A stretch of 64,000 bases of DNA, from NCBI GenBank assembly GCA_025934695.1, contig JAICWS010000005.1:1-64000 (forward strand). Direction: 5' to 3'. This document shows, piece after piece, positions 5,681 through 57,944 of the stretch; positions within the stretch are counted from its first letter, which is position 1; the number at the start of each line of letters is the position of its first letter. The notes under the pieces were generated by a model. That model was given only the letters and a program-made list of their open reading frames with translations, did no database searches and was not told the DNA's origin. The position numbers were made by a program, and so were the translations under genes. The stretch is from Alphaproteobacteria bacterium (lineage in GTDB: Bacteria; Pseudomonadota; Alphaproteobacteria; Micavibrionales; UBA2020).

Positions 5681-5742
5681 ATGTGCCGCCTTTATAGGTA
5701 AGAGCCTGCAACGAAATTACCGAAGCGGGCCGAATTAATCAA

Positions 5743-6449: not shown

Positions 6450-6451
6450 CT

Positions 6452-8882: not shown

Positions 8883-10334
8883 CTATTTAAACAGCGACTG
8901 CGCGGCATCGGCGGCGCTTGTCAGCAGCGGGCCCGGGAAGACGATAAACAGCACGATCAGCGCCGATGAGATGCCGAGCAGCAGGTTCAGCCTGCCGTCG
9001 CTGGCCTTGTCGATGACGTCGTCGCCCGCGGTTTCGAAATACATGACCTTGATGATGCGCAAATAATAGTAAGCGCCGATGACCGAGGCCAGCACGCCGA
9101 GCACGGCCAGCGTGTAAAGGCCCGATCCGATGGCCGCCTGGAAGATGAACAACTTGCCGAAGAAGCCGGCCAGCGGCGGAATGCCTGCCATCGAGAACAT
9201 CATGATCGTCATGGCCAGTGCGAGAAGCGGCTGGCGGTCGCCCAAGCCCGAGAGGTCAGAAATCTGCTCGACCATGCGGTCTTTCTGTTTCATCATCAGC
9301 ACGACGGCGAAGGCGCCGATCGTCATGACCATGTAGATCGCGGCATAGATCATGATCGCCTGTACGCCCGCCGGGCTGGCGGCGGCGAGCCCCACGAGCG
9401 CATAGCCCATATTGCCGATGGAGCTGTACGCCAGCAGGCGCTTGATGTTGTTTTGGCCGATGGCCGCGACGCTGCCCAGGACCATCGAGGCGACCGAGAT
9501 CACCACGACGACCTGGCGCCACTGGTCGGCCAGGTGGCCGAAGGGACCCATGAACGTGCGGGTCAAGAGCGCGAGCGCCGCCAGCTTGGGGGCGATCGCG
9601 AAGAAGGCCGTCACGGAAGTGGGCGCTCCTTCGTAAACGTCGGGCGTCCACATATGGAATGGCACGGCGGAAATCTTGAACGCGAGGCCTGAAAGCAGCA
9701 GCACCATGCCGACGATGATGCCGAGGCCCGCGGGATGGCCAGCGAGCGCCGTGCTGATGGCGTCAAAGCCGGTCGCGCCCGTATAGCCGTAAATCAGCGA
9801 CGCGCCGTACAGCAGCATGCCAGATGAGAGCGCGCCGAGGACGAAATATTTAAGCCCCGCCTCCGTCGAACGGACGGTATCGCGCTGCATCGCGGCCAGC
9901 ACGTAGAGCGGCAGGCTCTGCATCTCGAGGCCCATGTAGAGGGCGATCAGATCGTTGGCCGAGATCATCAGCATCATGCCCAGCGTCGCGAAGAGGATAA
10001 GGATGGGATATTCGAAGCGCATGATGCGCTGGCGCTCGACATATTTGGCCGCCAGCATGATCGAGACGAAGGAACCGGTCACAACCAGGGCTTTCATGAA
10101 CGCGCCGAAGGCGTCGGCGATGAACATGCCGTTGAAGGTCGTGGCGGTCTCGGTGCAGAATTTGCACAGCGTCATGAAGACGGCGGCCAGCGCGAGCATG
10201 CTCAGGTTCGAGACGCTGTTATAGTCTTCCTCTTTCCGGCTGATGCCGAACAGCAGGATCAGCATGGCGGCGATCGCTAGCGAAATTTCGGGGAATGCCG
10301 GCATCAGCTCGGGCGTTATGAACGACTTGATCAC
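8883..10334 (-). CDS. nuoN: NADH-quinone oxidoreductase subunit N
   Basis: 483 residues, about 14 membrane helices. It is an antiporter-like proton channel subunit of complex I. The family segment around SLPLYVLAAMQRD and the KISAVPFHMWTPDVYEGAPT region carry the Lys/His residues of the proton path; the broken helix with KLAALALLTR follows. Last nuo gene; its ATG overlaps the nuoM stop by 4 bp. Confidence 0.96.
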   Translation of the reverse strand: MIKSFITPELMPAFPEISLAIAAMLILLFGISRKEEDYNSVSNLSMLALAAVFMTLCKFCTETATTFNGMFIADAFGAFMKALVVTGSFVSIMLAAKYVERQRIMRFEYPILILFATLGMMLMISANDLIALYMGLEMQSLPLYVLAAMQRDTVRSTEAGLKYFVLGALSSGMLLYGASLIYGYTGATGFDAISTALAGHPAGLGIIVGMVLLLSGLAFKISAVPFHMWTPDVYEGAPTSVTAFFAIAPKLAALALLTRTFMGPFGHLADQWRQVVVVISVASMVLGSVAAIGQNNIKRLLAYSSIGNMGYALVGLAAASPAGVQAIMIYAAIYMVMTIGAFAVVLMMKQKDRMVEQISDLSGLGDRQPLLALAMTIMMFSMAGIPPLAGFFGKLFIFQAAIGSGLYTLAVLGVLASVIGAYYYLRIIKVMYFETAGDDVIDKASDGRLNLLLGISSALIVLFIVFPGPLLTSAADAAQSLFK

Positions 10335-11941
10335 TTTTTCTTCCCTTCATTGGGCGCCTTGGCAGGCGCTTTGACCGGCGGCGCCTTCGCCGGACCTTTG
10401 ACGGGCGCGGGCGCGGCCTCGGCAGCGGCCGACGGCGCGGTAAAATGCGCATGGTAACTGTTCACGAGGCGCGTCAGCGACGGCTCCATCGGAGCGGTGA
10501 AGCTGGTGGGATAAATTCCCATCCAGAGCACGAGCGCAATCATCGGCACGAACATGGCGATTTCGCGCACATTAAGATCCTTCATCGCCCGGACGTCGGA
10601 TTTGTTCAGTTCCCCGAACACCACGCGCTTGTAGAGGTACAGCATATAAGCGGCGCCCAGGATGACGCCCGTCGCGGCCAGCGCCGTCACGGTGGTATTA
10701 ACCTGGTAGGAACCGGCCAGTACCAGAAATTCCCCGACGAAGCCGCTCGTCCCCGGCAGGCCGACGGAGGCGAGCGTGAAGACCATGAAGGCGGTCGCGT
10801 ATCTGGGCATGTTGTTGACAAGGCCGCCGTAGCGCCGGATCTCGCGCGTATGGAGGCGATCGTAAATGACGCCGACACAAAGGAACAGCGCGGCCGAGAC
10901 GACGCCGTGCGACAGCATCTGGAACATCGAGCCGTCGATGCCCTGCTGCGTGAAGGTGAAGATGCCGAGGGTCACGAAACCCATATGGGCGACCGACGAA
11001 TAGGCGATCAGTTTCTTCATATCCTCCTGCGCGAGCGCGACCAGCGAGGTGTAAATGACCGCAATGACGCTGAGTGCGAACATGAGCGGCGTGAAATAGG
11101 CGCAGGCATCGGGCAACAGGGGGATGGAAAGCCGCAGGAAACCGTAACCACCCATCTTCAGCAGCACGCCGGCCAGGATGACGGAACCCGCCGTCGGCGC
11201 CTCGACGTGCGCGTCGGGCAACCAGGTGTGCACAGGCCACATCGGCACCTTGACCGCGAAGGAGGCGAAGAAGGCCAGCCACAGCCATTTCTGCATGGCC
11301 GAGGAGATGACGATCTTGCCCGAGGCGATGTTGTCGGTCAGCTGCTGGATGTCGGTGGTGCCGAACTGGTAATAAATCGTCAGCATGGCCAGCAGCAGCA
11401 GGACCGAGCCCAGCAGCGTATAAAGGAAGAACTTGAACGCCGAATAGACCCGGCGGGGCCCGCCCCAGACGCCGATGATGACGAACATCGGGATCAGCAC
11501 GCCCTCGAAGAAGACATAGAACAGGATCAGGTCGAGCGAGGAGAACATGCCGACCATCATCGTCTCGAGCAGCAGGAAGGAGATCATATACTCCTTCACG
11601 CGGTGCGTGATCGACTCCCAGCTTGCCATGATGCAGATCGGCGTCAGGAAGGTGGAGAGCAGGATAAAGAAGACGGAAAGCCCGTCGACGCCCATATGAT
11701 AGAAGATCTTGAAGCCCGGCAGCCAAGGCTCCCGCTCGACGAACTGGAGGTCCGCCGACGAAGTGTCGAAGGCAGCATACATATATAATGACAGCGCGAA
11801 GGTGAAGAGCGAGGTCAGGAGCGCAGTCTTGCGCGCGTTACTTGCGGCTGCGGCCTCATCTCCCCGGATGAAGAGGATGAACAGCACCCCCAGGAGCGGC
11901 AGGAAGGTGATCAGCGACAGGATTGGGAAAGAGACAGTCAT
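10331..11941 (-). CDS. nuoM: NADH-quinone oxidoreductase subunit M
   Basis: 536 residues, a 14-helix antiporter-like proton channel of complex I. Conserved features include the glutamate of the FLLLETMMVGMF helix and the VPMWPVHTWLPDAHVEAPT segment. The C-terminus has an unusual ~35-residue hydrophilic tail rich in Ala, Pro and Lys (APAPVKGPAKAPPVKAPAK) after the last membrane helix. It starts 3 bp downstream of nuoL and overlaps nuoN by 4 bp. Confidence 0.96.
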   Translation of the reverse strand: MTVSFPILSLITFLPLLGVLFILFIRGDEAAAASNARKTALLTSLFTFALSLYMYAAFDTSSADLQFVEREPWLPGFKIFYHMGVDGLSVFFILLSTFLTPICIMASWESITHRVKEYMISFLLLETMMVGMFSSLDLILFYVFFEGVLIPMFVIIGVWGGPRRVYSAFKFFLYTLLGSVLLLLAMLTIYYQFGTTDIQQLTDNIASGKIVISSAMQKWLWLAFFASFAVKVPMWPVHTWLPDAHVEAPTAGSVILAGVLLKMGGYGFLRLSIPLLPDACAYFTPLMFALSVIAVIYTSLVALAQEDMKKLIAYSSVAHMGFVTLGIFTFTQQGIDGSMFQMLSHGVVSAALFLCVGVIYDRLHTREIRRYGGLVNNMPRYATAFMVFTLASVGLPGTSGFVGEFLVLAGSYQVNTTVTALAATGVILGAAYMLYLYKRVVFGELNKSDVRAMKDLNVREIAMFVPMIALVLWMGIYPTSFTAPMEPSLTRLVNSYHAHFTAPSAAAEAAPAPVKGPAKAPPVKAPAKAPNEGKKK

Positions 11942-11944
11942 TGG

Positions 11945-13879
11945 TTAGAAAACCCCGCGGAAGAAGTAAAGGTATCCCGCCACGATCGCGACCACGCCGA
12001 TGAGCATGGCGAAGGCATAGTGGTAGATATAGCCTGACTGGACCTGGTGCGCCTTGACCGCGGAAGCCGAAACGACTTCTGCGATGCCGTCGGGGCCAAG
12101 ACCGTCGATCACCTCGCCGTCGCCGGTCTTCCACAGTGCGCGGCCGAGGAAGAAGGTCGGGATGACGCCGATGATGTTATACAGCTCGTCGAAATACCAT
12201 TTGTGGTACAGGAAGTCGTGAATGCGGCCGAAAGTGCCCGCCATGACCGCCGGCAGATGCCGGGCGCGGATATAGAACAGGTAGGCGAGCGCGATGCCGA
12301 AAGCGCCCACGATGGTCGGCAGGAACTTGTAAATGCCGGTCACGCCTTCTTCGGTGCGCGACAGCACGTCGTTGTCGTGCAGGACGAAGATCGCGTTGCC
12401 CCAGAACTCGCCCCTCGCCTCGCCCACGAAGAACTTGCTGAAGAACAGGCCCGCGCCGATCGCGCCAAGGGCAAGCACCGCCAACGGCACGGTCATAATG
12501 GGAGGTGATTCATGGACGTGCGCCATGACCTTTTCATCCGCGCGCGGCGCGCCGTGGAAGGTCAGGAAGATCAGCCGCCAGGAATAGAAGGCCGTCATGA
12601 AGGCCGCCACGATGCCGAGCCAGTAAGCCATCATACTGAAAGGCGTATGGGCGACGAAGGCGGATTCAAGGATGGTATCCTTCGAGAAGAAGCCGGCGAA
12701 GGGCGGAACGCCCGCGAGCGCGAGGCTGCCGATCCACATCACCGCGTAGGTGAAGGGAATAAGCCGCCAGATGCCGCCCATGCGGTTCATGTCCTGCTCG
12801 TCCGACATGGCGTGAATGACGGAGCCGGCGCCGAGGAACAGAAGCGCCTTGAAGAAGGCGTGGGTGAAGAGGTGGAATACGGCCGCCCCATAGGCCGAAA
12901 CGCCGAGCGCGAAGAACATGTAACCCAGCTGGCTCATCGTCGAATAGGCGATGACGCGCTTGATATCGAACTGCGTCATGCCGATGGTGGCCGCGACGAA
13001 GGCGGTCAGCGCGCCGATGAAGGTGATGAACTCCCGCGCATGGGGCGCATATTCGTAAATCGGCGACATGCGGGCGACGAGGAACACGCCGGCCGTCACC
13101 ATCGTGGCGGCATGGATGAGCGCTGAAACAGGCGTCGGGCCTTCCATGGCATCCGGGAGCCAGGTATGGAGGCCGAGCTGGGCCGACTTGCCCATCGCGC
13201 CGATGAACAGCAGGAAGCCGATCAGCTCGAGCGCCGGGAATTGGTGGTCGAGGAAGGTCACCATCAGGTCCTTCTTGCTCGCCGCGGCGGCGAAAACCGT
13301 GTCATAGTCGAGCGTGCCGAAGACCATGAAGATGGCGAAGATGCCGAGCGCCAGGCCCCAGTCGCCGATGCGGTTCATGACGAAGGCCTTCACGGCCGCG
13401 GCATTCGCGCTTTCCTTGTGGTTCCAGAAACCGATCAGCAGGTAGGACGCGAGGCCCACCCCTTCCCAGCCGAAGAACAGCTGGATGAAATTGCCTGCCG
13501 TCACCAGCATCAGCATCGCGAAGGTGAAGAGGCTCAAATACGACATGAAGCGGGCTTTATGCTCGTCATGGTGCATGTAGCCGACGGAATAGATATGCAC
13601 CATGCAGGACACGACGTTGATGACGACCGCCATAACGGCCGTCAGCTGGTCGAACTTGACCGACCAGGACACATGCAGGCTGCCCGACGAAATCCAGTCG
13701 AAGAGCGTGATGGTGTGGGGGGCCGTGCCCAGGAAGCAGATATCGCGGAACAGCAACAGCGACACGAAAGCCGCGACGACCATCAGCGCGCAGGTCAGGA
13801 ACTGGGCCGGCTTTTCCTCGAGGAAGAGCCCGGCCGCGATGGCGCCGATAAGCGGGGCGATGACTGCGATGACTTCCAT
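11945..13879 (-). CDS. nuoL: NADH-quinone oxidoreductase subunit L
   Basis: 644 residues, the distal proton channel subunit with the long lateral helix near the C-terminus. Visible motifs: FFGWEGVGLASYLLIGFW with the conserved Glu, and KSAQLGLHTWLPDAMEGPTPVSALIHAATMV, the strongest NuoL hallmark. The C-terminal third (from ~500) contains the lateral helix and final membrane segment. It lies between nuoK (7 bp) and nuoM (3 bp). Confidence 0.97.
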   Translation of the reverse strand: MEVIAVIAPLIGAIAAGLFLEEKPAQFLTCALMVVAAFVSLLLFRDICFLGTAPHTITLFDWISSGSLHVSWSVKFDQLTAVMAVVINVVSCMVHIYSVGYMHHDEHKARFMSYLSLFTFAMLMLVTAGNFIQLFFGWEGVGLASYLLIGFWNHKESANAAAVKAFVMNRIGDWGLALGIFAIFMVFGTLDYDTVFAAAASKKDLMVTFLDHQFPALELIGFLLFIGAMGKSAQLGLHTWLPDAMEGPTPVSALIHAATMVTAGVFLVARMSPIYEYAPHAREFITFIGALTAFVAATIGMTQFDIKRVIAYSTMSQLGYMFFALGVSAYGAAVFHLFTHAFFKALLFLGAGSVIHAMSDEQDMNRMGGIWRLIPFTYAVMWIGSLALAGVPPFAGFFSKDTILESAFVAHTPFSMMAYWLGIVAAFMTAFYSWRLIFLTFHGAPRADEKVMAHVHESPPIMTVPLAVLALGAIGAGLFFSKFFVGEARGEFWGNAIFVLHDNDVLSRTEEGVTGIYKFLPTIVGAFGIALAYLFYIRARHLPAVMAGTFGRIHDFLYHKWYFDELYNIIGVIPTFFLGRALWKTGDGEVIDGLGPDGIAEVVSASAVKAHQVQSGYIYHYAFAMLIGVVAIVAGYLYFFRGVF

Positions 13880-37455: not shown

Positions 37456-37926
37456 AGGTTGGTTGGGCGGTTCTCAAGCATAGGCAGCGGCCGCTTCCCC
37501 AATATGATTTCACCTCATTGGCATGGGCGAGATGGCAACTAAACCGCCGCGCGCGGAAGAAATTGTCATCGTAAGACACAATATCAATTCACCCCGGATC
37601 TCACTTGTAGCAGGGATATATCTGAGATGCCGGAAGTATTTGACCTTCTCGGCGACGCAATGGCTAACAACATTAGACGATGTCGAAAGAAGTTTGAGGA
37701 CAAGCATGAAAAGATGCTGGACAAATATGCTCATCTCAAATGACGCTCGTTCCCGGGGGAAGGCTGCTGGCCAGTCAACGTTTTGAGTTGGGGGGGGCAA
37801 ATATCTAGCTGAAATTTATGAAGATTTTTGTTAATGTAAATGGGCGCGCTGACAAAAAATTGGGTGCCCCCGAATCTAATAATATGGTAAGAATGAGCCG
37901 ATCAACCGAAGCGCTGGGTATTAACC
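37456..37926. other. Transition from host DNA to AT-rich island
   Basis: Base composition falls sharply across this stretch. No clear gene is present. A 38-residue open frame at 37627-37743 (plus strand, MPEVFDLLGDAMANNIRRCR onward, Lys/Glu-rich helix) and an overlapping frame at 37523-37786 both look like possible remnants of a disrupted gene. Neither has a convincing ribosome binding site. The left end of the island is probably inside this stretch, but no direct repeat or integrase is visible. Confidence 0.4.
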
Positions 37927-37927
37927 A

Positions 37928-39444
37928 ATGGCAAGATTAAGGTGGGAAAAACTCCTTAATGAGGCGAGATTTTCTGACTTAGATAAGAAAGCTAAGGCAG
38001 CTAAAAAGAAATCTGAGCCTGAAAAAGAGAATAAAGAACCGCTACCCGAGTGGCTGCTCCAAAACTCGAGAACGGAAATCGAGCGGGACTATGATCGTAT
38101 CCTATTCTCTTCGGCGACAAGGAGATTGGGGGATAAAACTCAAGTCTTTCCGCTGGACAAGGATATCAGCATTAGGAATAGGCTTACTCATTCGCATGAG
38201 GTTTCTAACCTTGCGCGGTCGATAGGAACATACTTGGCTTACAACCATAAGCCACTAATCAAAGAAATTGGTCCCAGCATTACCCGAGATTTGCCGTCAA
38301 TACTGGCAGCTATCGGTCTTGTGCATGACTTGGGCAATCCCCCGTTTGGACACCAAGGGGAGAAGGCAATTTCGTATTGGGTGAAAAAAAATCAGGCCGC
38401 AATATTCAAGGGGGCGTCGTTTAGTAATGCACAGAAGAATGATTTCCTTGCATTCGAAGGCAACGCTCAAACCTTGCGCTTACTAACAAAAATACAAGTT
38501 GTCGATAGGCCGTATGGGTTCAACCTCACCTTCGCTACGTTGGCCGCTGTTATGAAGTACACTGTTCCAAGCAACAAATCGGATGGAAAAACTGCGGCGC
38601 GGAAAAAGCACGGCTTCTTTCAATCTGAACAAGATACGGTAAAAACCATTTGGGAACAAACAGGCTTAAGCGAGGGACTTAGGCATCCATTGACCTATAT
38701 CATGGAAGCTTGCGATGACACGGCTTATTCCGTCATTGATGCGGAGGACAGCGTAAAAAAAGGTCTGGTATCATTTGCGGATTTAATTGCTTGGCTCGAA
38801 AAAGCTAAAATCGTTAAGAATGAAGAGGGTAACGAGACCGAAGATGAGGTCGTCAAATGGGTTCTAGCTAAATCGCTTCAGGACCACAGAAAACACCTTG
38901 AGCTCAAGTTGTCGCCGCTCAATTGGATGATCTCTCCACTAACAAATTTAGAGTTCATGCACTAAATGCGATGGTTTCGGCGGTAGCGAAGGCATTTGAA
39001 GCGCATTATGAAGATATAATGACAGGTGCTTGGCCGCATGCGCTTGTGAAGAAAAGCAAGGCGAGTGTTTTGTGCAAGGCACTCAAGGATTTCGACACGG
39101 AGTATGGCTATAAGCATCGCGGGGTACTGGAAATTGAATTAAAAGGTTTCAATATCCTGCAAGATATCATGGACATGATTTGGAAGGCGATCACCCAGAG
39201 AGAAGTCAGTAAGGACCTCGGTTCCGAGAGAACGACTCCTTTCGCGAAATATGTCTATTTCAGAATTTCGGAGAATTATCGCCGTTTCTTTGAAGGTAAG
39301 CAGCCCTTTAATGAATCCAAGATGCCAATTAGATATCGCGAGATTCAATTGCTAACTGACATGATCGCAGGAATGGCTGACGGGTTTGCCGTTGATCTTC
39401 ATGAGGAGCTGAGCAAGTTCCATGTTGGAGCAAGCGCGAAATGA
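37928..39444 (+). CDS. dgt: dGTPase-type HD triphosphohydrolase, split by a -1 frameshift
   Basis: Dgt family: hydrolyses dNTPs, classically dGTP, to nucleoside and triphosphate. Frame 1 (37928-38965) has the family opening ERDYDRILFSSATRRLGDKTQVF (51-73), NRLTHSHEVSNLARS (84-98), the HD pair in VHDLGNPPFGHQGE (132-145) and EACDDTAYSVIDAED (260-274). It stops at 38965, but the C-terminal helical part continues in the -1 frame to 39444 (RVHALNAMVSAVAKAFEAH onward). Joining at the A-AAT-TTA heptamer gives 505 residues, the length of E. coli Dgt. It could be programmed frameshifting, a disabling mutation or a sequence error. Base composition is far lower in GC than its surroundings. The stop overlaps the next ATG. 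Confidence 0.8.
38944..38950 (+). promoter_or_regulatory. Candidate -1 ribosomal frameshift heptamer in dgt
   Basis: The heptamer A AAT TTA is in the right phase with frame 1 (codons ending ACA, then AAT, TTA). A -1 slip would move decoding to AAA TTT and continue in the frame holding the Dgt C-terminus. The frame-1 stop lies 15 bp downstream. A small hairpin TTTCG-(7 nt)-CGAAG lies about 25 nt downstream, farther than usual for a stimulator. The -1 frame is closed just upstream by TGA at 38899-38901, so the switch must occur between there and 38965. Confidence 0.45.
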
Positions 39445-40217
39445 AAGGAAGCGCGCTCAAAAAGCGGGTAGAGTACTTCTTCTCGTCGTCGAAACGCGGG
39501 CGAAGTGAGCCAGTCGAGATCATCAACGAGATGATGAAATTTGGTCCGATGGTCGTTATTGGTGGAATGATTCGCGATCTTGCGGTTCTTGGTAACAAGA
39601 ATTTCTGTTCAGACCTCGATTTAGTGATCAATCCATCTGACGTTGGGAAATTTGATCGCTTTATGTCTGTATATGCGGCGAGCAAAAATAAATATGGCGG
39701 TTATCAGCTAGTAGCAGGCAGGTGGAAAGTAGAAGTATGGCCACTTGAGCGAACTTGGGCTAAAGAAAAGAATTATGTAGACGTGAAAAATTTTCGTGAT
39801 TTGTTAAATATCACATTCTTTAATTGGGATGCAATTCTCTATGATATAACGAATAGGCAATTGATTTCATCGGAACATTATTTTAACGAGCTTGAAAGAC
39901 GAATTTTGGATATCAATTTACGACATTCATTAAATCCATTAGGCAATGCTATTAGAGCGTTAAGATCGTTATATCGATATGACGCCAAATTTAGTTACTC
40001 TCTATCGAGATTCGTATTCGAGCAGATGGCCTCACATGGGGTGGAGACTGTCTTGGAGAAGGAGAAACTATCTTTTCCCAAGACGTTTCTCCATCGTAAT
40101 GACCTCTTACAAATTCAATCCAGGCTTGCCCACCATTTGGAAAGCAATCGAGATCAGATATTTGACTTCAATATCAACAAACAGATGGCGCTGCCTTTGG
40201 AACACGCCAATATGTAG
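39441..40217 (+). CDS. Small nucleotidyltransferase, CCA/poly(A)-polymerase head-like
   Basis: 258 residues. The pol-beta-type signature GG-MIRDL (41-47) followed by SDLDLVI (57-63) matches the head domain of CCA-adding enzymes and poly(A) polymerases: G-G, R-D and the D-x-D metal ligands. A further acidic strand (KVEVWPLERTW) may give the third ligand. A helical part (LNPLGNAIRALRSLYRY) resembles the neck region in which an Arg-rich helix recognises the nucleotide. It lacks the body and tail that hold tRNA. The ATG overlaps the dgt stop as ATGA. AT-rich like the rest of the island. Target unknown: RNA, tRNA, protein or a second messenger are all possible. Confidence 0.7.
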   Translation: MKGSALKKRVEYFFSSSKRGRSEPVEIINEMMKFGPMVVIGGMIRDLAVLGNKNFCSDLDLVINPSDVGKFDRFMSVYAASKNKYGGYQLVAGRWKVEVWPLERTWAKEKNYVDVKNFRDLLNITFFNWDAILYDITNRQLISSEHYFNELERRILDINLRHSLNPLGNAIRALRSLYRYDAKFSYSLSRFVFEQMASHGVETVLEKEKLSFPKTFLHRNDLLQIQSRLAHHLESNRDQIFDFNINKQMALPLEHANM

Positions 40218-40219
40218 TT

Positions 40220-41194
40220 TTATTGGTTATATACATCCAACCAATCAATAGATTTTGATAGAATTGGCGATCCCGCAGGCATTACTATTTTGACGGCCTT
40301 ACCCATTGCGGTGAGATTTTCGGCGGCCGTAATTGCAGCTTGCTGACCTGCTTTCGATTTGTCGTTATCGCCGTAAATAATGACTTTGGTGGTATTAGTA
40401 GGAACAGAGATATCTACTAAAAGAGAAGTTGACGTTGCTGCCCAAACATTAAGTCCCGTCATCAGTCGAACGGCTAATGCAGTTTCTATTCCCTCGCAAA
40501 TTCCAATCTTCTCGTCCGCCGGATATAGATGGATTGCGCCCGCAGCACGACCGGGAAGCAATTTTCGGACCGTCGGAATGGGTGCCTTTTTTCCGTCTAA
40601 GGTGATGTATGTTCGATGTAACGTGACTGTGGCGCCGGCACAATCTTTCATAATCGCCACCAATGTAGGAAAATAAGTTTTTTTTCCACCCTCACCGTAA
40701 AAGGGGAGATGCGGGTGAAACAAAAAATCGTCGGGAAGATCGCGTAAAATTTTGTCCAAGCCCCTGTTCTTCAGATAGAGACGCGCGGGCTCGGATTTAC
40801 TGTGATCAATGGATAGGCAAGATTTTAAAATATTTTTTATCTGCCCACTGTTATCACGTTTGGCCGTTGATCGGGTTTCGGTGACGGAAAACGGCTTACG
40901 ATCAACCGTGCAAATGCCGCCAAGGTCCTTTAATGCACCCTTGAAGTCGAGGCCATATTTTTTTGAATGAAAGCTTATGAGGTCTCCACCTTTAGCCCGG
41001 CAACTAAAGCATTTGAATGCGCCAGTGTCGCGGTTGATTCCAAAGCTACCGGGGCTTTTGTCTGCATGGAACGGACATAGACCGCTCATTATCCATTTGT
41101 CGCCATTGTTCCTGGGCTTAAACTTCTCTATATGCATAGAATAGTAATCGAGCGGCGAAATGTTGTCCTTTATTTTGCTTGCTGCAAGAAACAT
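40220..41194 (-). CDS. CHC2 zinc-finger and Toprim primase-like protein
   Basis: 324 residues. The zinc ribbon is C-x2-H...C-x2-C: GLCPFHADKSP (C40, H43) and FKCFSCRAKGGD (C62, C65). The C-terminal Toprim domain has the Glu in GICEGIETALAV (E234) and DxD in IIYGDNDKSKAG (D276, D278). This is DnaG-type primase architecture without a helicase or DnaB-interacting tail, as in many phage and integrative-element primases. It starts 12 bp after the RT stop, with AAAGGG as ribosome binding site, so it is cotranscribed with the RT. Its stop lies 2 bp from the stop of the convergent nucleotidyltransferase gene. Confidence 0.8.
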   Translation of the reverse strand: MFLAASKIKDNISPLDYYSMHIEKFKPRNNGDKWIMSGLCPFHADKSPGSFGINRDTGAFKCFSCRAKGGDLISFHSKKYGLDFKGALKDLGGICTVDRKPFSVTETRSTAKRDNSGQIKNILKSCLSIDHSKSEPARLYLKNRGLDKILRDLPDDFLFHPHLPFYGEGGKKTYFPTLVAIMKDCAGATVTLHRTYITLDGKKAPIPTVRKLLPGRAAGAIHLYPADEKIGICEGIETALAVRLMTGLNVWAATSTSLLVDISVPTNTTKVIIYGDNDKSKAGQQAAITAAENLTAMGKAVKIVMPAGSPILSKSIDWLDVYNQ

Positions 41195-41206
41195 TAAGGA
41201 TACCCT

Positions 41207-43222
41207 TTAGAAATCTTCCGAGATTTGGCGGAGTTCGGCAGCATCATTAATCTCGATAATGGCGTCTTGAACGGAGTTCTCATTGCTGGGCGCATAACTG
41301 GAGACGAGGTCTTGATGCAATTGCTGAACTTGTTTTCTGTGTCCTCGATGCGTCAACTGATCCATATTTTCTTTCAATTTTCGGATAAGGGTTTTCTTGA
41401 TGGAACGCATTTCAGGGGCGGCAATGTACGAGAGTAGATATAATTCAGGCATACAATCGCAAAGTCGAAGCGATAGGTCGTATTTCTTGTCAAACAGATA
41501 ATTAATTTTACGCGAGGCTGTATTTTGATTCCATTTGATGGATCGGAAATACTTGCCGACTCGTTTTACTTTTTCGTTAGGATGGAAGACTAGAGATTTA
41601 AGAATTTCGGAATGTTTGCCTCTAAATTTTACAAGGTTTCCAGCCAGAGCTACTTGTACTTCTTGATTTGTTTCCTGATTGAACAGCTTAAGTAAATCAC
41701 GATATTGTTTTTGGCTAAGCTCTACCCTTGTCAGCAATTGTAAAGCTTTGACCCGAACATAAAAATGCCTGTTCGCATCGAACGCAAGGCTTAAACAATA
41801 ATCAACGATACCTTGGGGAATTTCAGATAGAAACCGAAAGGCTTCCAAGATTTCTGCTTCCTGATGTGGAAAAATGTTGAGATCGGATTTAATGAATTCA
41901 AACAATTCTTCCGCCAGCTTCATCTGCCCTGGAAACGACTTAAAGGTTCTCGTTACCAGCATTGTCATTTTGAAGTCGGGGTTATTCTTGATCTCATAAA
42001 GAATTTTTTTGACGTATCCCGGACTGTTTAGCGATATGTGTGCATGCACCCATCTCTTAAACAGGCGCAAATCTAAACTGTCATTAAGTGGGCGTTTTCT
42101 AATACCCAAAATGCATTGGGAGTTGGGTCGAGCCGCACTCTCTTTGACTAAAGCATTCGCTTTCTTTATCAGCTTTTTCCTCTTGTCTTGTGTTAATTTT
42201 TGACTTTTATGAAGAGCATGAATGTCTTTAATCAAGAGATTCATCTGATCAAGCCTCTTATCAATGAGCGCATTGCTGATCTCTTTATTTTGCTCTTTAA
42301 GAATTTTGGTTTTTGCCGATTGAGCATTTAAATGTTGGGCTTTTAATGCTCGATCAAGTTCGAGTACCGCTTGCCGTGCATCCTTTTCCTGTTTGGTAAA
42401 AATGCGGATGTCATCCATGTATCTATAGTATTCGGCATCTTTATCCTGACAAAAACGTTCAAATTTTTTGTCTACTGGGATGAGAAACGCGTTACCCAAA
42501 AAACTCGAGATCGAATTTCCTTGTGGAATGCCTCGCCATTGAGCGCGCCCATCACTCGTTTTTGTCGCCCATGCTTCTAAAAAGGAAACCAACGAATTTA
42601 CGATTTTAGTTTCGTCATGGAAAATCTGAATTAACTGGTCCCGTAAAATCGGAATTTGAATATTCTCAAAATACGCGGAAATGTCAGAAGTAGCCATGAA
42701 AGGCAGCTTCTGCTTCTCAAAAGATTTTCTGCTCTTTTCGTCGAACTCTGGCCAGTTTAAATACCAAGGATCAAACGGATCGAGCCGCGTGGAAATCGTC
42801 TTCCTTTTCAAGTAGGGAATATCCAAGAGATCGGTTTCTCTAAAAATAGATCGTTTATCGTCTGCAAACTTTTCCTTGAGACGATAGCTGTAAACGTTGT
42901 CATGAAGCTTCGTGTCGACCGGTTGGGCTATGAGAAACATTATCGTATGAAGAACGATGCTATCGTCGATAGAAATGTAAGATCCCGGGCGCGTTGCGAG
43001 AGAATTTTTTGGAATTTCTATGTGTATAAGAGGAGATGGGCGATAGGTCCCGGATATTAGGCGGTTCCGAATTTCTAAAATGTTGTTTTCAAAATCTTCC
43101 GTAAACGCATCAATTAAATAGGGTTCCTGTATGAATGCCTTCTTCGCATCTTCACGAGCAAGGTGCCAACCTCTTTTTAGGTTTCCCTCGTGAGTCAATT
43201 TTTCCCAAAGTTTTTGAGACAT
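41207..43222 (-). CDS. Reverse transcriptase, UG/Abi (DRT-like) type with helical-repeat C-terminus
   Basis: 671 residues. RT motifs: first catalytic Asp in TSDISAYFENI (D180), QGNSISSFLGN (motif B, 234-244), and YYRYMDDIRIF with the YMDD box (268-271). No maturase X domain, HNH or integrase domain is seen, so it is not a typical group II intron or DGR RT. From about residue 385 to the end the protein is helical with a repeating pattern (for example ETNQEVQVALAGNLVKF and PNEKVKRVGKYF) resembling HEAT/alpha-Rep tails of defence RTs. I cannot assign a UG number. First gene of an operon with the Toprim gene. AT-rich. Confidence 0.8.
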   Translation of the reverse strand: MSQKLWEKLTHEGNLKRGWHLAREDAKKAFIQEPYLIDAFTEDFENNILEIRNRLISGTYRPSPLIHIEIPKNSLATRPGSYISIDDSIVLHTIMFLIAQPVDTKLHDNVYSYRLKEKFADDKRSIFRETDLLDIPYLKRKTISTRLDPFDPWYLNWPEFDEKSRKSFEKQKLPFMATSDISAYFENIQIPILRDQLIQIFHDETKIVNSLVSFLEAWATKTSDGRAQWRGIPQGNSISSFLGNAFLIPVDKKFERFCQDKDAEYYRYMDDIRIFTKQEKDARQAVLELDRALKAQHLNAQSAKTKILKEQNKEISNALIDKRLDQMNLLIKDIHALHKSQKLTQDKRKKLIKKANALVKESAARPNSQCILGIRKRPLNDSLDLRLFKRWVHAHISLNSPGYVKKILYEIKNNPDFKMTMLVTRTFKSFPGQMKLAEELFEFIKSDLNIFPHQEAEILEAFRFLSEIPQGIVDYCLSLAFDANRHFYVRVKALQLLTRVELSQKQYRDLLKLFNQETNQEVQVALAGNLVKFRGKHSEILKSLVFHPNEKVKRVGKYFRSIKWNQNTASRKINYLFDKKYDLSLRLCDCMPELYLLSYIAAPEMRSIKKTLIRKLKENMDQLTHRGHRKQVQQLHQDLVSSYAPSNENSVQDAIIEINDAAELRQISEDF

Positions 43223-43249
43223 GAACTTTTGCGATCAATTTATTTTTTG

Positions 43250-43263
43250 TGCAAAGATTTGCA
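43250..43263. promoter_or_regulatory. 14-bp palindrome upstream of the RT gene
   Basis: TGCAAAGATTTGCA, two 6-bp half-sites around GA, lies 28-41 bp upstream of the RT start codon in an AT-rich leader. Position and symmetry would suit an operator, but no regulator gene is in the island. No ribosome binding site is seen before the RT ATG. The remaining leader to 43399 has no recognisable retron-type RNA. Confidence 0.3.
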
Positions 43264-43399
43264 ATAATACTTGGGCTGTGGATAAAAACAAGCCGCGATA
43301 GCCTTCCAGATGCTTGAAGACGAATAGATTGATGGTCCGTATCAGGTATCTATTCAGAAATTCAAATTTGTGAGAATTGCAGGAAACCCCTTATTTTTT

Positions 43400-43446
43400 T
43401 GGAGTACGCGACGAGGATTTAACCCGCGACTTTTCAGCTTCGGAAG
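43400..43446 (-). other. Degenerate 3' half of a tRNA, possible attachment-site remnant
   Basis: On the minus strand: TTCCGAAGCTG (an anticodon-loop TTCCGAA with CCG, plus the 3' stem), then AAAAGTC, a T arm with loop TTAAATC instead of TTCAAATC, acceptor 3' strand CGCGTAC, discriminator T and CCA. The 5' half is missing. It resembles a tRNA-Arg(CCG) 3' half. Such fragments typically mark att sites of elements that integrate into tRNA genes. It lies between the RT and tRNA-Glu at the island's right side. Confidence 0.5.
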
Positions 43447-43490
43447 GAAAATGTGAGCGATCGATATTACCGAAGTATTACCTAAGAAAT

Positions 43491-43515
43491 GAAAAAGCCC
43501 GGTTGATACCGGGCT
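43491..43515 (-). terminator. Intrinsic terminator of tRNA-Glu
   Basis: Minus-strand hairpin AGCCCGGT-ATCA-ACCGGGCT, a perfect 8-bp stem, followed by TTTTTC. It starts 17 bp beyond the 3' end of tRNA-Glu. Confidence 0.85.
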
Positions 43516-43531
43516 AAACACTTGAAAAGAT

Positions 43532-43607
43532 TGGCGTCCCCTAGGGGATTCGAACCCCTGTTACATCCGTGAAAGGGACGTGTCCTAGGCCTCTAGACGA
43601 AGGGGAC
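43532..43607 (-). tRNA. tRNA-Glu (anticodon TTC)
   Basis: 76 nt, intact cloverleaf. Acceptor strands GTCCCCT and AGGGGAC pair fully; the anticodon loop CTTTCAC gives TTC; the T loop is TTCGAAT; discriminator G and encoded CCA. The AT-rich island lies on its 3' side, the usual arrangement for elements inserted at tRNA genes, but I found no direct repeat of its 3' end near 37.5 kb. Confidence 0.95.
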
Positions 43608-52683: not shown

Positions 52684-52788
52684 CCACCCCGGACTTGTTC
52701 CGGGGTCCAGCACGCCGCGTCTGCGGCGTATATGAATCATATGACGCGTTGACGCGCTTTTGGACCCCGGAACAAGTCCGGGGTGGAA
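52684..52788. repeat. Intergenic inverted-repeat element
   Basis: About 105 bp. CCACCCCGGACTTGTTCCGG plus GGTCCA on the left; TGGACCCCGGAACAAGTCCG plus GGGTGG on the right, a near-perfect inverted match. A nested smaller palindrome (CGCCGCGTCTGCGGCG) is in the middle. It occupies most of the 52612-52879 spacer. Confidence 0.8.
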
Positions 52789-52879
52789 TGTGGATGGTTA
52801 TGTCAAAATAATCGACGCCATTCCGTGCCTCCGCCGCGATGCGCTGCTATCATCAACTCAACAAGTGCAGGCCCTCCCC

Positions 52880-53497
52880 ATGAAAAAAACCCAACGCCAC
52901 AACTCCATCGATCTCTCACAGCTGAAGCCCACGCAGGTCACTGTCGGCATGCTGGAGGTCGAGCATAAGCGCAGGCGGCTCCAGTCGCTCGTGCGGCGGC
53001 CGGGAGAGCTAATCGCCTTCATCCTCGAACATCCGATCCGGGTCGTCATGGGCCCGGCGGGGAAGTTTTACGTGGTCGATCATCACCACCTCGCCCTCGC
53101 CCTGATCCGCGAGAATTTCGAAACCGCGCCGATGGACATCGACGGCGATTTCTCGAAACTGTCGGGCGAGAACTTCTGGAAGAAGATGCAGGCGATGAAA
53201 TTCGTCCATCTCTGCGACGAGCAAGGCCGTGCCTGCAAGGTCACGCGCATCCCGAAAGACCTCGAGGACCTGGTGGACGACCCGTACCGCAGCCTCGCCG
53301 GATTCGCACGCGAGGCAGGCGCGTACGAAAAAGTGCCGACGCCCTTTGCGGAATTCCTGTGGGCGGATTTCTTCCGCGCCCGCATCCACCATCATGTCGT
53401 GAAGAAGTCGTTCGAGAAAGCGCTCAAGCACGCCATCAAGCTCGCGCGCACGCCGGAAGCGAAAAAACTGCCGGGATACAAAAGAACGCGGAAGTAA
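52880..53497 (+). CDS. ParB-like nuclease-domain protein (ParBc_2 type)
   Basis: 205 residues from MKKTQRHNSIDLSQLKPTQ at 52880. The N-terminal domain follows the ParB/Srx pattern: LKPTQVTVGMLEVEHKRRRL, then VVDHHHLALALI, the diagnostic D-x-HH segment of the small ParBc_2 proteins. The rest is helical and ends in KKLPGYKRTRK. ParBc_2 members are not chromosome-partition proteins; their function is poorly known. It converges on the EH-signature gene (3 bp between stops), so it is not in that operon. Confidence 0.75.
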   Translation: MKKTQRHNSIDLSQLKPTQVTVGMLEVEHKRRRLQSLVRRPGELIAFILEHPIRVVMGPAGKFYVVDHHHLALALIRENFETAPMDIDGDFSKLSGENFWKKMQAMKFVHLCDEQGRACKVTRIPKDLEDLVDDPYRSLAGFAREAGAYEKVPTPFAEFLWADFFRARIHHHVVKKSFEKALKHAIKLARTPEAKKLPGYKRTRK

Positions 53498-53500
53498 GTC

Positions 53501-55126
53501 TCAATACCTCCACCACCCTCTTCCCGCTTTCCAGCGGAAGCCGAGCGCAGCCAGGCGCTGGGCGAGATAGTAGTTGTCTTTCACGTCACCGACGACCCAC
53601 AGGGCGCCGCCTTGCGGCCTTGTATCTTCGGCCTGCAGATGCGCCTCGCGCAGGAGAACCTGGAATGCTTCGTTGTCGAGCGGCGCCCGTGCCGGTTTTG
53701 CCGCCTTCGGCGTGGGCGAAGCGGCTTTGGCCCTGGCGGCCCCAGCGTCGGCGCGGCGGATGCCGAGGGTCGCGAGTTCGGTGACGAGCTTGTCTTCCCA
53801 CATGCCTTCGAGTGTGTCCTGCCGCGCGAGCTTAAAATCCGCCGCCCCGTTCTTGCGCAGACACGGCAGGTCAACCTCCGCCGCATCGGCCTGGAACGGC
53901 GCCTGGGCAAGGCGATAGCCGTAGAGCGGCGTGTTGGGAATATTTGTCTCGACCAGCAGCCAGACGCCCATTTTCATGACCAGTGCACTCGTATCATCGG
54001 GGCAGCCGGCCAGTTTTGCCGCCGTGGATCGCGCGCGCAACTGCGCGATGGCGGGTTGCGGCGCGCGCTGGGCCTCGGGGCCGATCAGCACGCGGTGGAA
54101 TTCGATGGACTTGAAATAGCGGTTCCAGAAGCTCAGCTTGCGCTCGTCGTCTCCGAACAGGGTCAGAAAATCCTTCACGTCGTCGCGCACCAGCCATTCC
54201 TGGAACATGGCGCGCGCTTCGGCGCTGAGCAGGTCATATTGCGGATGTTCGCTTAAAGGCGGCGCGCCCCAGCACTCGAGGACGGTGTTCCTTAAATCCT
54301 CCTGCATGCCGATGTCGCCGGCTTTGACGCAGCGTTCCAGAAACTGGCGCAACAGCTGGTCCCGCAGCCCCTCGGGCAGGAAGTAAGCGGCCTGCAGGAG
54401 CGCCGGCACCGCCGCTATGAAACCCGCGTCCTTCAGCTTCACGGCCTGCGACGCGCGCGCAACGGTCAGCTCGCGCCAGAACCAGCTGTTGTCGGGGACG
54501 CCCAAGGAACGGCGCATTGCCTCGATTCCGCCGGGCTTTCCCGCCAGCATCTGCGCAGCGGCTGCCTTGCAGGGTTCCTTCGTCAGAATATCGCTATTGT
54601 CCTGGATGTCCTTCGGCCAATGGAACGGATAACCGGTATCGACATCGATGAGTGGCGAGATTTCCACCAACAGGTCGCGCAGCATTTCGCAGCACACCGT
54701 GCGGTCGGGTGCCGCAATATAGCATTGCAGCAGGTCGTACCAGCTCTCGGCATGCAGCTTCTTCTCCTTGAAGCCATGAGCGATGCGAGTGAGCAGCTCG
54801 TTCGCGGCATCCGGTGCCGCGTTCATGAGGCTGAAGCCGTTGCAAACGACGCAGGCATGGTTGAGCCCTGCGCAGAGCGCCCGCACCTCGCGGCGGTTGA
54901 GGCGGTCGGCGCCCTTGGCGCGGAAAGCCATCACGGCGCGGCATTGCTCCTTGTCCGAGAGGCCGGAGCCGGGCATGACGGTGGCGCGGATCGCTTCCTC
55001 CGCCTTGCGCATCTTCTCGGGGGCGCCGAAGGCGGGCATTTGCGGAAGCGCGTCGAGAAACGACTGGAAGGCGGAGGACAGCCTTGCGATCGGCGACGAT
55101 GCCGGGGCTGCCGACGGGCCGCTCAT
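53501..55126 (-). CDS. EH-signature (ZorC-like) protein
   Basis: 541 residues. The domain pattern of EH_Signature proteins, found in ZorC of Zorya anti-phage systems, is visible: FIAAVPALLQAAYFLPEGLRD (~236-255), MFQEWLVRDDVKDFLTLFGDDERKLSFWNRYF with the R..FW core (307-338), VMKMGVWLLVETNIPN (383-398), and WEDKLVTELATLGI (443-456). The C-terminus GGALWVVGDVKDNYYLAQRL then GFRWKAGRGWWRY is a small tail of a kind seen on nucleic-acid-related proteins. Its ATG overlaps the ZorA-like stop as ATGA. The usual His before WE appears replaced. Host-like GC content. Family assignment by motif reading, not by search. Confidence 0.65.
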   Translation of the reverse strand: MSGPSAAPASSPIARLSSAFQSFLDALPQMPAFGAPEKMRKAEEAIRATVMPGSGLSDKEQCRAVMAFRAKGADRLNRREVRALCAGLNHACVVCNGFSLMNAAPDAANELLTRIAHGFKEKKLHAESWYDLLQCYIAAPDRTVCCEMLRDLLVEISPLIDVDTGYPFHWPKDIQDNSDILTKEPCKAAAAQMLAGKPGGIEAMRRSLGVPDNSWFWRELTVARASQAVKLKDAGFIAAVPALLQAAYFLPEGLRDQLLRQFLERCVKAGDIGMQEDLRNTVLECWGAPPLSEHPQYDLLSAEARAMFQEWLVRDDVKDFLTLFGDDERKLSFWNRYFKSIEFHRVLIGPEAQRAPQPAIAQLRARSTAAKLAGCPDDTSALVMKMGVWLLVETNIPNTPLYGYRLAQAPFQADAAEVDLPCLRKNGAADFKLARQDTLEGMWEDKLVTELATLGIRRADAGAARAKAASPTPKAAKPARAPLDNEAFQVLLREAHLQAEDTRPQGGALWVVGDVKDNYYLAQRLAALGFRWKAGRGWWRY

Positions 55127-56874
55127 GCCGCGGGTTTGCGCAGGAGTTCCGGCAGTTCCTGCAGCGCCGAGGTGAGGTTGCGCATCTGCACCGAGATCAA
55201 CTCGACCGAATTGCTCATGGAGCTGTGGAAGGCCGTGGTCGATTTCTCGAGGTTTTCATGCACAGACTTGCCGAAGCCGCTAAAGCCGGTCGACAGCACG
55301 TCGGAAACCTGGTGCAGATATTGGTCGGTCTGCGCCTGCACTTCTTTCAGGCGGTCGGCCACCTTCTGCATGTCGCTGACCAGCGACTGATTGATGGTGA
55401 CCTTGGTATCGACGTCCTTGACCATGCTCTGGAGGGAGGCGACCAATCCCGCTATGCTGTCGCGCGCCTTGCCGTAGTCGGCGATGGTCTGCGACAGCGC
55501 CTGCGTCGAACCATTGAGCGCGGCGCCGCTTTCCATCATGTGGCGCGAGAGACTGTGGGCGTGGGAAATCTGCGAATTCATCACCTGTCCCGCCTCGCCG
55601 AATTTTTCGGCGGCGCCAAGAATGGTCTTTGCGCTTAAGTCCATCTTCTCGATGGAGGCGTTGGTCAGGTTCGACACATGCTCGATATTCTTCTTGAGGT
55701 CGTCCATCATCTGGCCGATGTTCTGGCGCATGTCGTGAAGCGACTTCGCGTTCTCCATCATCAGGACGTTCAGTCCCTTGATTTGATCTTTGGACGCATC
55801 CTCGACCTTGGCGACCATCTGCGACATGGTGTTCTGCAGGAGGCGGTCGACATTTTCGGCCTGGCGGCCCGACTGCTCGACGACCTGCACCATCTGGCCC
55901 AGCGGTTTTTCGAAGGTTTTCGCGATTGCCTGGGTGATATCGCGCGCCATGGCGGCCATGGCATCCTTCATGACATGCTCGATGCTTTCGGCCTGTTTCG
56001 CCGACTGCTGCGATGCGAGAACGATCTTTTCCAGCGGCTGCTCCATCGCACGGCCCACCGACTTGACGATGTCGGCGGTGATCGACGCAGTGGAGGACTG
56101 GATCGACATGGTCTGCCGGCCGATCTGCTGCGCGAGGACCTCGCCCAGCACCCGGGCCAGCATGTCGCGCATCAACGCCGCTTCCTCGGCCCGTTTGGCC
56201 TCGATGACGGCGGCGTTGGCGACGACGACTGCCTGTTCCGGCGCCGCGTCCGCCGCGGGATAAAGATTGGCGAGCGCCTGCACGACCTCATCGGCCAGCA
56301 CCGGCAGCGCCGCCGGCAAGGTTTTCATGAGGCCTGAAGCGGCAAGCCCGAGGAGCAGCGGCACCAGCGCGAGCGCCATGGCGCCGACCGGTCCCGCCGA
56401 GGTGAAGCCTTCTCCATCTTCCTGTAAATAGGCGCCTGCAATCGCGGCAAAGAGCGCGACAGCGCCCAGCACCGTGGCGGCGCAGGGCAGATGGCGCGCG
56501 GAACCGGTTTCATAGCCGCTATCGATCAGCGTGTTGCGGGCAAACAGGATCGCGGGCTGCGACGCCATGCGCACATCCTTCACGATGGTTTCGCCGTTGA
56601 TCTCCTCCGTTTGCTTGCGCAGCGTGTTTTCCCAGGCGTGCCAAGCCTGCGCCCAGGCAAGATTATCCGCGAACAGCGACGCGACGAGCGTCAGCGGCGT
56701 AACGCCCCCGCCCGCCTTCGCCTCGGCGATGCCGCGCTTAAGCTTTTCGAGCGCCGCGCGCTGGCGGCGGATGGGCGAAATGAATCCGGTGTAGAAAAAG
56801 ATAAAGGCCAGCGCGCCCAAGGCGGAGGCCAGTAATGATCCCTGGTTTAAATACAGGTCGAGACTGTCAGGCAT
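55123..56874 (-). CDS. ZorA-like membrane protein with long coiled-coil tail
   Basis: 583 residues from the ATG at 56874 (MPDSLDLYLNQ), with GGAG 10 bp upstream. One N-terminal membrane helix (~15-35), a cytoplasmic stretch including WAQAWHAWENTLRKQ, then two helices (about 125-145 and 155-180) with ARHLPCAATVLGAVALFAAIAGAYL, in the place where ZorA/MotA-type proteins have their P-x-L-TGLG-like helix. The C-terminal ~380 residues are a long helical coiled coil with regular heptads, as in the ZorA tail. No ZorB (peptidoglycan-binding partner) gene is next to it, unlike typical Zorya loci. Confidence 0.65.
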   Translation of the reverse strand: MPDSLDLYLNQGSLLASALGALAFIFFYTGFISPIRRQRAALEKLKRGIAEAKAGGGVTPLTLVASLFADNLAWAQAWHAWENTLRKQTEEINGETIVKDVRMASQPAILFARNTLIDSGYETGSARHLPCAATVLGAVALFAAIAGAYLQEDGEGFTSAGPVGAMALALVPLLLGLAASGLMKTLPAALPVLADEVVQALANLYPAADAAPEQAVVVANAAVIEAKRAEEAALMRDMLARVLGEVLAQQIGRQTMSIQSSTASITADIVKSVGRAMEQPLEKIVLASQQSAKQAESIEHVMKDAMAAMARDITQAIAKTFEKPLGQMVQVVEQSGRQAENVDRLLQNTMSQMVAKVEDASKDQIKGLNVLMMENAKSLHDMRQNIGQMMDDLKKNIEHVSNLTNASIEKMDLSAKTILGAAEKFGEAGQVMNSQISHAHSLSRHMMESGAALNGSTQALSQTIADYGKARDSIAGLVASLQSMVKDVDTKVTINQSLVSDMQKVADRLKEVQAQTDQYLHQVSDVLSTGFSGFGKSVHENLEKSTTAFHSSMSNSVELISVQMRNLTSALQELPELLRKPAA

Positions 56875-57185: not shown

Positions 57186-57944
57186 ATGTCAGACCTCGTG
57201 ACCACATCGGTAAAGGACGGCATCCTGACCATCCGCATGAACCGGCCGGACAAGAAGAACGCGCTGACGGTCGAGATGTATGACGATCTGACCAAGGCGA
57301 TCAAGGACGCCGAGAAGGACAAAAACGTCCGCGTCATCCTCATCACCGGTGCGGGCGATAGTTTCTGCGCGGGGAACGACCTGAAGGATTTCCTCGAAAA
57401 TCCGCCGAAATCAAAGAATGCGCCGGTGCTGAAGTTCGTGCGCGCGATTGCGGACGCAAAACTGCCCATCGTGGCGGCCGTCAACGGCACTGCCGTGGGA
57501 CTTGGCGTCACCATGCTGCTGCATTGCGATTTCATCTATGTGGCGAAGGATGCGACCCTGTCCCTCCCCTTCGTGAACCTGGGATTAGTGCCCGAGGCCG
57601 CCGCCAGCCTGCTGCTGCCGCGCCTGGCGGGGCACCCGCGCGCGGCCGAAATGCTGATGCTGGGCGAGCCTTTCAGTGCGAAGGCGGCGGTCGACGCCGG
57701 CATCGCCAATGCCGTCTGCGAACCCGAAGACCTCGAGGCGACCGCACTCAAAACCGCGAAGAAACTCGCCGCCAAGCCGCGCAACGCGCTGCTCCACACC
57801 AAGGCCCTGTTGCGCCGCGACTTCGAATCCGTCGCCGCCCGCATCGACGCCGAGGCCGATATCTTCCGGGAATGTCTGGACTCCGACGATGCCAAGGAAG
57901 CCTTCACCGCCTTCAAAGAAAAGCGCAAACCGAAGTTTCAATAG
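57186..57944 (+). CDS. Enoyl-CoA hydratase/isomerase family protein
   Basis: 252 residues. Crotonase fold: IRMNRPDKKNALTVEMYDDL near the N-terminus, the oxyanion-hole segment AGDSFCAGNDLKDFLEN, and AAVNGTAVGLGVTMLLHCDF. The first catalytic Glu site is replaced by NGTAVGLGV-type sequence, while LVPEAAASLLLPRLAGHPRA carries the E-A-A region, fitting the isomerase-leaning branch (ECI/PaaG-like). Cytoplasmic fatty acid metabolism; substrate not inferable. GGGGGA lies upstream of the ATG. Single gene. Confidence 0.88.
   Translation: MSDLVTTSVKDGILTIRMNRPDKKNALTVEMYDDLTKAIKDAEKDKNVRVILITGAGDSFCAGNDLKDFLENPPKSKNAPVLKFVRAIADAKLPIVAAVNGTAVGLGVTMLLHCDFIYVAKDATLSLPFVNLGLVPEAAASLLLPRLAGHPRAAEMLMLGEPFSAKAAVDAGIANAVCEPEDLEATALKTAKKLAAKPRNALLHTKALLRRDFESVAARIDAEADIFRECLDSDDAKEAFTAFKEKRKPKFQ

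Follow-up and report, generated by a model that had tools for sequence, protein, structure and literature searches.

In a 64,000-nucleotide stretch of alphaproteobacterial DNA (GTDB lineage Micavibrionales, UBA2020; contig JAICWS010000005.1, positions 1 to 64,000; hereafter the window), two adjacent genes encode relatives of ZorA and ZorC, two proteins of the Zorya defence system. In known Zorya, ZorAB senses envelope disturbance, and its ion-powered tail recruits ZorC and ZorD (PMC11890865, PMC12904381). The pair cannot run this cycle, because it has no ZorB, no pore residues and no ZorD. We propose, with about an even chance of being right, that it derives from type I Zorya (ZorABCD) by loss of ZorB and ZorD, is motor-dead but under purifying selection, and may tether ZorC at the membrane. 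A sequence-only reading of the window had described a two-gene module of a ZorA-like and an EH-signature protein with an ATGA overlap at 53501-56874, and these coordinates proved exact. The two genes and their parts are as follows.

55123..56874, minus strand: zorA-like gene, 583 amino acids (P0001), ATG start.
53501..55126, minus strand: zorC-like gene, 541 amino acids (P0002), with an EH_Signature domain; it starts inside the zorA stop (ATGA).
56779..56835, minus strand: ZorA predicted membrane helix 1, residues 14-32 (hydropathy).
56434..56490, minus strand: ZorA predicted membrane helix 2, residues 129-147, holding Leu141 (hydropathy).
56326..56382, minus strand: ZorA predicted membrane helix 3, residues 165-183 (hydropathy), holding Ala169 (placed by alignment and a 37-residue count).
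55126..55530, minus strand: ZorA tail tip, residues 449-583, the most conserved part, present in ZorAs with a type I ZorC partner.
53948..53950, minus strand: ZorC Glu393, the retained EH-signature Glu (alignment).
53822..53824, minus strand: ZorC Arg435, at the EH-signature His position; no His occurs anywhere from Glu393 to Trp443.
53504..53680, minus strand: ZorC C-terminal segment, residues 483-541, ending KAGRGWW, common to several type I ZorCs.

The family assignment was examined using profile searches, and both proteins matched the families previously named for them. The window ZorA matched the PADLOC ZorA1 model (PDLC00598, 6.1e-66) and the NCBIfam type I ZorA1 model (NF041794, 3e-34; 118.5 bits, missing the curated cut-off of 750), while ZorC matched Pfam EH_Signature (PF15611, 1.9e-22; 80.6 bits, passing the cut-off of 27.5), the PADLOC ZorC1 model (PDLC00613, 3.2e-64) and NCBIfam NF041789 (1.7e-39; 135.8 bits, missing the curated cut-off of 490). 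Since the NCBIfam scores lie far under the curated cut-offs, ZorA and ZorC of the window are divergent members of their families. Profiles of the pair's proteins also matched the solved structures of ZorA (8qyd, 5.3e-31) and ZorC (8r68, 3.8e-49) in the PDB, and in a ZorC tree the pair falls, along with 16 further sequences, within a type I clade supported at 100/100, the pair itself being joined at 100/100. Hydropathy peaks at residues 14-32, 129-147 and 165-183, followed by a tail of about 380 residues, agree with the ZorA-like membrane architecture described from the sequence. For neither protein did a Kiwa family appear among the PADLOC matches up to E=1. The window ZorA gave no match to Pfam MotA_ExbB, a result that is uninformative because a ZorB-accompanied ZorA (L118) gave none either; we therefore discarded the lack of this match as a sign of a dead motor.

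A second ZorA–ZorC pair was found in the metagenome-assembled genome FW300_bin.31 (G001, locus L002), which belongs to the same genus. It encodes a ZorA of 563 and a ZorC of 551 amino acids in the same gene order, with the ATGA overlap and without ZorB, and each protein is 57% identical to its counterpart in the window. GATCGGAG precedes the zorA-like start in the window and likewise lies upstream of the FW300 homologue. The sequence-only reading had raised a MotB-type gene as a possible fixed partner elsewhere; none is present at this single other pair. Neither protein was found in the four remaining genomes of the genus, the pair thus occurring in the window genome and one of five other genus genomes. 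EH_Signature matches were obtained in 5 of 143 relatives, three of which (G015, G017 and G028) have A-B-C or A-B-C-D systems and two of which (the window genome and G001) have A-C only. Among 398 Pseudomonadota genomes the domain was found in 37, at 44 places including that of the window. We inspected 40 of the 43 non-window loci (leaving out G622 C525, G576 and G748) and found ZorB at all 40, in one case (L093) about 3.4 kb from the match. In a survey of the pairing across 385 genomes of the class, the ZorC query A2 had matches in four and the query A5 in six, one of the latter (G223) being a complete A-B-C-D system. No description of a ZorB-less ZorA–ZorC pair was found in the literature searched, which is not proof of its absence in print.

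The earlier reading had also noted that ZorB and a helicase/nuclease were missing locally, and searches of the whole genome did not find them either. The zorA-like gene precedes the zorC-like gene and is coupled to it by the ATGA overlap, leaving no space for zorB between them. A search using an alignment of 10 ZorB sequences (model length 236) gave full-length matches in three control genomes (5.3e-95 to 3.9e-98). No full-length ZorB was found in the window genome, which gave only three partial matches (best 4.5e-8; model positions 74-216, 120-180 and 91-175 of 236) that never reached the N-terminal helix; the same alignment found none in FW300_bin.31, whose two matches were partial (best 6.2e-7). 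For ZorD, an eight-sequence alignment reached E=0 in two of three control genomes (G181 and G478) and had no match in the window genome or FW300_bin.31. Queries with one ZorB and one ZorD sequence, run without a control, had likewise given no match. The idea of a minimal Zorya derivative is thus strengthened: the pair is type I by profile and tree, no ZorB or ZorD was found, and it recurs in a second genome.

We then examined the residues through which ZorA works with ZorB. In Zorya, ZorA presents a Ser/Thr ring to the Asp with which ZorB carries ions, and the residues preceding helix 3 belong to a periplasmic collar that packs on ZorB (PMC11890865). With a model of the ZorA head from which the pair had been excluded, we compared 49 ZorAs from ZorB-bearing loci and found that the helix 2 Thr and the helix 3 Ser were kept in all 49, but in neither of the two pairs. 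The head model placed Leu141 (window) and Ile140 (FW300) at the Thr position. At the Ser position its alignment was unsure for the pair, giving Leu (window) and Ala (FW300), and MAFFT, together with a gapless 37-residue count back from a conserved LY, assigned Ala169 and Ala174, respectively. MAFFT also showed the stretch preceding helix 3 to be shorter in the ZorAs of both pairs. The three hydrophobic segments remain; the Ser/Thr ring facing the ZorB Asp, a feature of type I Zorya, is lacking. The loss of the motor residues suggests that the pair is kept for a motor-free job.

Conservation within ZorA pointed to the other end of the protein. Between the two pairs, ZorA identity was 84% in the last 130 residues versus 40% in the region from transmembrane segment 2 to 3 (TM2–TM3). 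Among the ZorAs of complete ZorABC(D) systems, TM2–TM3 was more conserved than the tip in six of seven comparisons (for example, 0.69/0.65, 0.84/0.66 and 0.77/0.52 for TM2–TM3 and tip) and about equal in one (0.61/0.64). In the pair, the constraint on ZorA has shifted away from the pore and onto the tip. A hidden Markov model of the tip, trained on the last 130 residues of 14 type I ABCD ZorAs with the pair excluded, gave scores of 93.2 for the window ZorA, 90.3 for the FW300 ZorA and 106.3 for the ZorA of the G015 ABC system. The scores were 10.0, 5.9 and 1.4 for three ZorAs that are accompanied by ZorB only and 5.2 and 3.8 for two ZorA-like orphans (G142 and G265). Low scores (4.4-16.9) were also obtained for ZorAs from a separate, distant branch of ZorABC(D) systems, so the rule that links the tip to ZorC is limited to the type I relatives of the present branch.

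The ZorAB-only loci are mirror images of the pair. A profile of the pair's ZorA had matches in 8 of the 143 relatives. The genomes G007, G012 and G014, which belong to a single genus within the family of the window genome, encode a ZorA of 528-538 amino acids and a ZorB with no adjoining ZorC or ZorD, and EH_Signature had no match anywhere in these three genomes. Their loci (L120, L119 and L118, respectively) occupy one chromosomal site, bordered on one side by a peptidase M32 gene (L119 and L120, and also L121 of G017) and on the other by a prephenate dehydratase gene (L119 by Pfam; L118 and L120 by manual reading). Locus L121 lies at this same site on a contig that ends inside ZorA, whereas L118-L120 are complete. 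The ZorAB-only ZorAs keep the Thr and the Ser, and their tail tip is missing except for a short end piece. In the ZorA head tree this group joins the G015 ABC protein (100/99), so the loci resemble an ABC system from which ZorC and the tip were secondarily lost. The two orphans have no adjoining ZorB or ZorC, and both have lost the helix 2 Thr and the tip; ZorC had no match in either genome. The Ser position of the G142 orphan is ambiguous, with a Ser one residue off in the alignment, and the loss of Ser is accordingly claimed for the two pairs only.

So, in these comparisons, the pore residues accompany ZorB and the tip accompanies ZorC. The number of independent events that lie behind these rules is small: one clade of pairs, one ZorAB-only clade and perhaps one or two orphan lines. 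Fisher tests were given no weight, since they disregard kinship and count training rows. In the ZorA head tree the four ZorB-less proteins group together against the ZorAB-only group (100/99); their branches are long, so this grouping does not establish a common origin. The descent of the pair is most simply explained by loss from a complete operon.

Comparison with known systems places the pair as follows. Like type I Zorya, it has proteins of the ZorA and ZorC families encoded in the order A before C with an overlap, a long tail on ZorA that bears the type I tip, and the C-terminal segment of ZorC; unlike type I, it is without ZorB, ZorD, the pore Thr and Ser and the EH His, and its constraint lies on the tip, not the pore. 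Of the 5:2 ZorA–ZorB motor that type I assembles, the ZorB part is missing here. By these defining features the pair is outside Zorya type I. With types II and III it shares a ZorA-family membrane protein, but those systems (ZorAB with ZorE, or with ZorF/ZorG) keep ZorB, whereas the pair has ZorC and no ZorB (PMC11890865, PMC8565338). The ZorAB-only loci are likewise two-gene type I Zorya remnants from the same GTDB family; they differ in having kept ZorB and the pore residues, and in missing ZorC, ZorD and the tail tip. Kiwa (KwaA–KwaB) resembles the pair in consisting of two genes, for a membrane protein and a DNA-binding partner that does not cut (PMC12904381), a likeness of plan only, for which we claim no homology.

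On the proposed route, a type I ZorABCD operon would have lost ZorB and ZorD to leave the ZorA–ZorC pair. ZorA might still assemble as a membrane-anchored cytoplasmic rod, now static and with no ion-driven motor, and ZorC could dock on the tip of its tail and thereby be kept near the inner membrane. There, without the ZorD nuclease, the tethered ZorC might bind or hinder DNA without cutting it. The resulting plan would be closer to that of Kiwa than to that of Zorya.

ZorC has changed as well, in a way that fits a reduced derivative but also raises doubt about the proposed action on DNA. The EH-signature Glu is retained in the window ZorC (Glu393), and the His column holds Arg in both pairs. 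Because the alignment is uneven at this column (His in 23 of 50 rows, a gap in 19), any His between the Glu and the next Trp was counted. All 32 comparable other ZorCs had at least one, and the ZorCs of the two pairs had none; the remaining 16 of the 50 rows are without the segment and were left out. The pair thus has the Glu, and not the His, of the Glu and His that mark type I. Hu et al. (2025) reportedly found that these two residues matter for E. coli ZorC. Loss of the His could mean that ZorC no longer acts on DNA, and this is the main ground for doubt. Further points count against the proposal. The docking of ZorC on the tip is an association drawn from few independent events, two long-branch orphans among them, and separate AlphaFold models of ZorA and of ZorC, made from two-sequence alignments, were poor (mean predicted local distance difference test scores of 45.0 and 39.7, respectively). 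Finally, each gene of the Serratia Zorya I system is required for defence (PMC11890865), so protection in the known way would not be expected from a remnant of two genes.

The main rival is that the pair was co-opted for a cellular task other than phage defence, with ZorA serving as a scaffold that, for instance, anchors or organises DNA or components of the envelope; we regard this as a serious though doubtful possibility. The loss of the EH His, which argues for an altered role of ZorC, would fit such a task, as would the surroundings of the pair. Its GC content and GC at third codon positions are those of the neighbouring genes, the GC content also matching that of the host, and the neighbours are metabolic genes; both flanking genes lie on the opposite strand, as had been described.

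52760-53497, plus strand: ParBc_2 gene on one flank (PF08857, 5.2e-52).
57186-57944, plus strand: enoyl-CoA hydratase gene on the other flank (PF00378, 8.5e-63).

Long residence in the host, previously argued from composition, is supported by this match and by the divergence of the pairs: their 57% identity is about that of other genes, judged by the thin yardstick of a single gene, the ParBc_2 neighbour, whose homologue in G001 lies on a different contig and is 52% identical. The settings of the orphans without ZorB and ZorC would also fit a cellular task, one (G142; L122/L134:17256-18944) adjoining a TPR protein and genes resembling an exopolysaccharide locus, and the other (G265; L132:3996-5819) adjoining trp genes on a contig that stops about 180 bases past the gene. 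Conversely, the patchy occurrence of the pair within its genus and its varied neighbourhoods (in FW300_bin.31, two response-regulator-like genes upstream and a polysaccharide deacetylase downstream) are unlike those of a core housekeeping gene.

It is unlikely that the pair is merely what is left of a type I Zorya operon in decay, with no present function. Half of the operon is gone, and the pore residues and the His are lost, as decay would predict; however, the frames are intact in two genomes whose pairs are 57% identical, and both keep the ATGA coupling. We also estimated the ratio of nonsynonymous to synonymous substitution rates (dN/dS) by the Nei–Gojobori method between the window and FW300 pairs. 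ZorA as a whole gave 0.35 and its last 82 aligned codons 0.11, and ZorC gave 0.27; these values are rough because dS is high and near saturation, but dN is far below dS. Both genes of the pair are under purifying selection, and ratios this low, 0.27-0.35 across the genes and about 0.1 within the tip, argue against decay. It is very improbable that the pair still works as a motor by borrowing its B subunit from elsewhere (flagellar MotB or an ExbD/TolR-type protein): the window genome does have a MotB gene, but this 351-amino-acid MotB-like gene, its sole MotB_plug match, adjoins its own MotA gene, and in ZorA the ion-binding positions hold neither Thr nor Ser and the stretch before helix 3 is shortened. 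Least probable of all is a complete Zorya with an unlinked or unrecognised ZorB and ZorD: the assembly, in 7 contigs and 99% complete, leaves room for a small gap, but the controlled alignment searches found neither gene here or in FW300_bin.31, and the pore residues are lost.

A broader proposal, less likely than not, can be made: Zorya would have been split within one alphaproteobacterial family into a motor-free ZorA–ZorC tether and an effectorless ZorA–ZorB motor without the docking tip, the ZorA pore serving ZorB and the last 130 or so residues serving ZorC. The ZorA–ZorC half would then be a motor-independent, nuclease-free module for immunity or DNA tethering. How the ZorA tail passes its signal on to ZorC and ZorD is a question that, to our knowledge, Zorya research has yet to answer. 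The two kinds of remnant may be regarded as natural separation-of-function mutants, one keeping what ZorC needs and the other what ZorB needs, and together they point to the ZorA tip as a candidate dock for ZorC, which is testable in type I Zorya. If active alone, the pair would be a ZorA–ZorC module that works without a rotary motor and without a nuclease.

The relatives of the pair were also sought among mobile elements. No ZorC relative was found among 50,697 phage records, and a pattern search of IMG/VR using A2 or A1 (ZorA) gave no match. Distant ZorCs occurred in 24 plasmid records, 20 of them from Klebsiella (identity under 60%, every match spanning less than 80% of the query), and a distant ZorA in one; the four plasmid loci inspected were all A-B-C-D.

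Other arrangements of Zorya genes were encountered as well. Recurring operons (L079, L081-L091 and L094) encode a very large ZorA (frames of 1157-1358 residues), a ZorB of about 315 residues and a short ZorC of about 435, the C-terminal half of which did not align with the EH Glu-His segment; the inspected stretches had no ZorD model match. Locus L092 (G740) is a tandem of two ZorA–ZorB pairs (454-2945 and 4371-7096), and locus L009 (G015; 8887-12784) is a ZorA–ZorB–ZorC operon with no adjoining ZorD, in which the 392-amino-acid ZorC stops before the EH Glu.

Elsewhere in the window, positions 37900-43600 have a GC content of 0.41-0.44 as against about 0.6, and this stretch ends at a tRNA-Glu gene (43532-43607). 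It carries a UG21-type defence reverse transcriptase (41207-43222, minus strand; PDLC03759, 4e-132), a fragment of a DnaG-like primase that includes Toprim (40220-41194, minus strand) and a dGTPase-like HD protein (37928-38965, plus strand; PDLC02374, 3e-63), and is probably a defence island.

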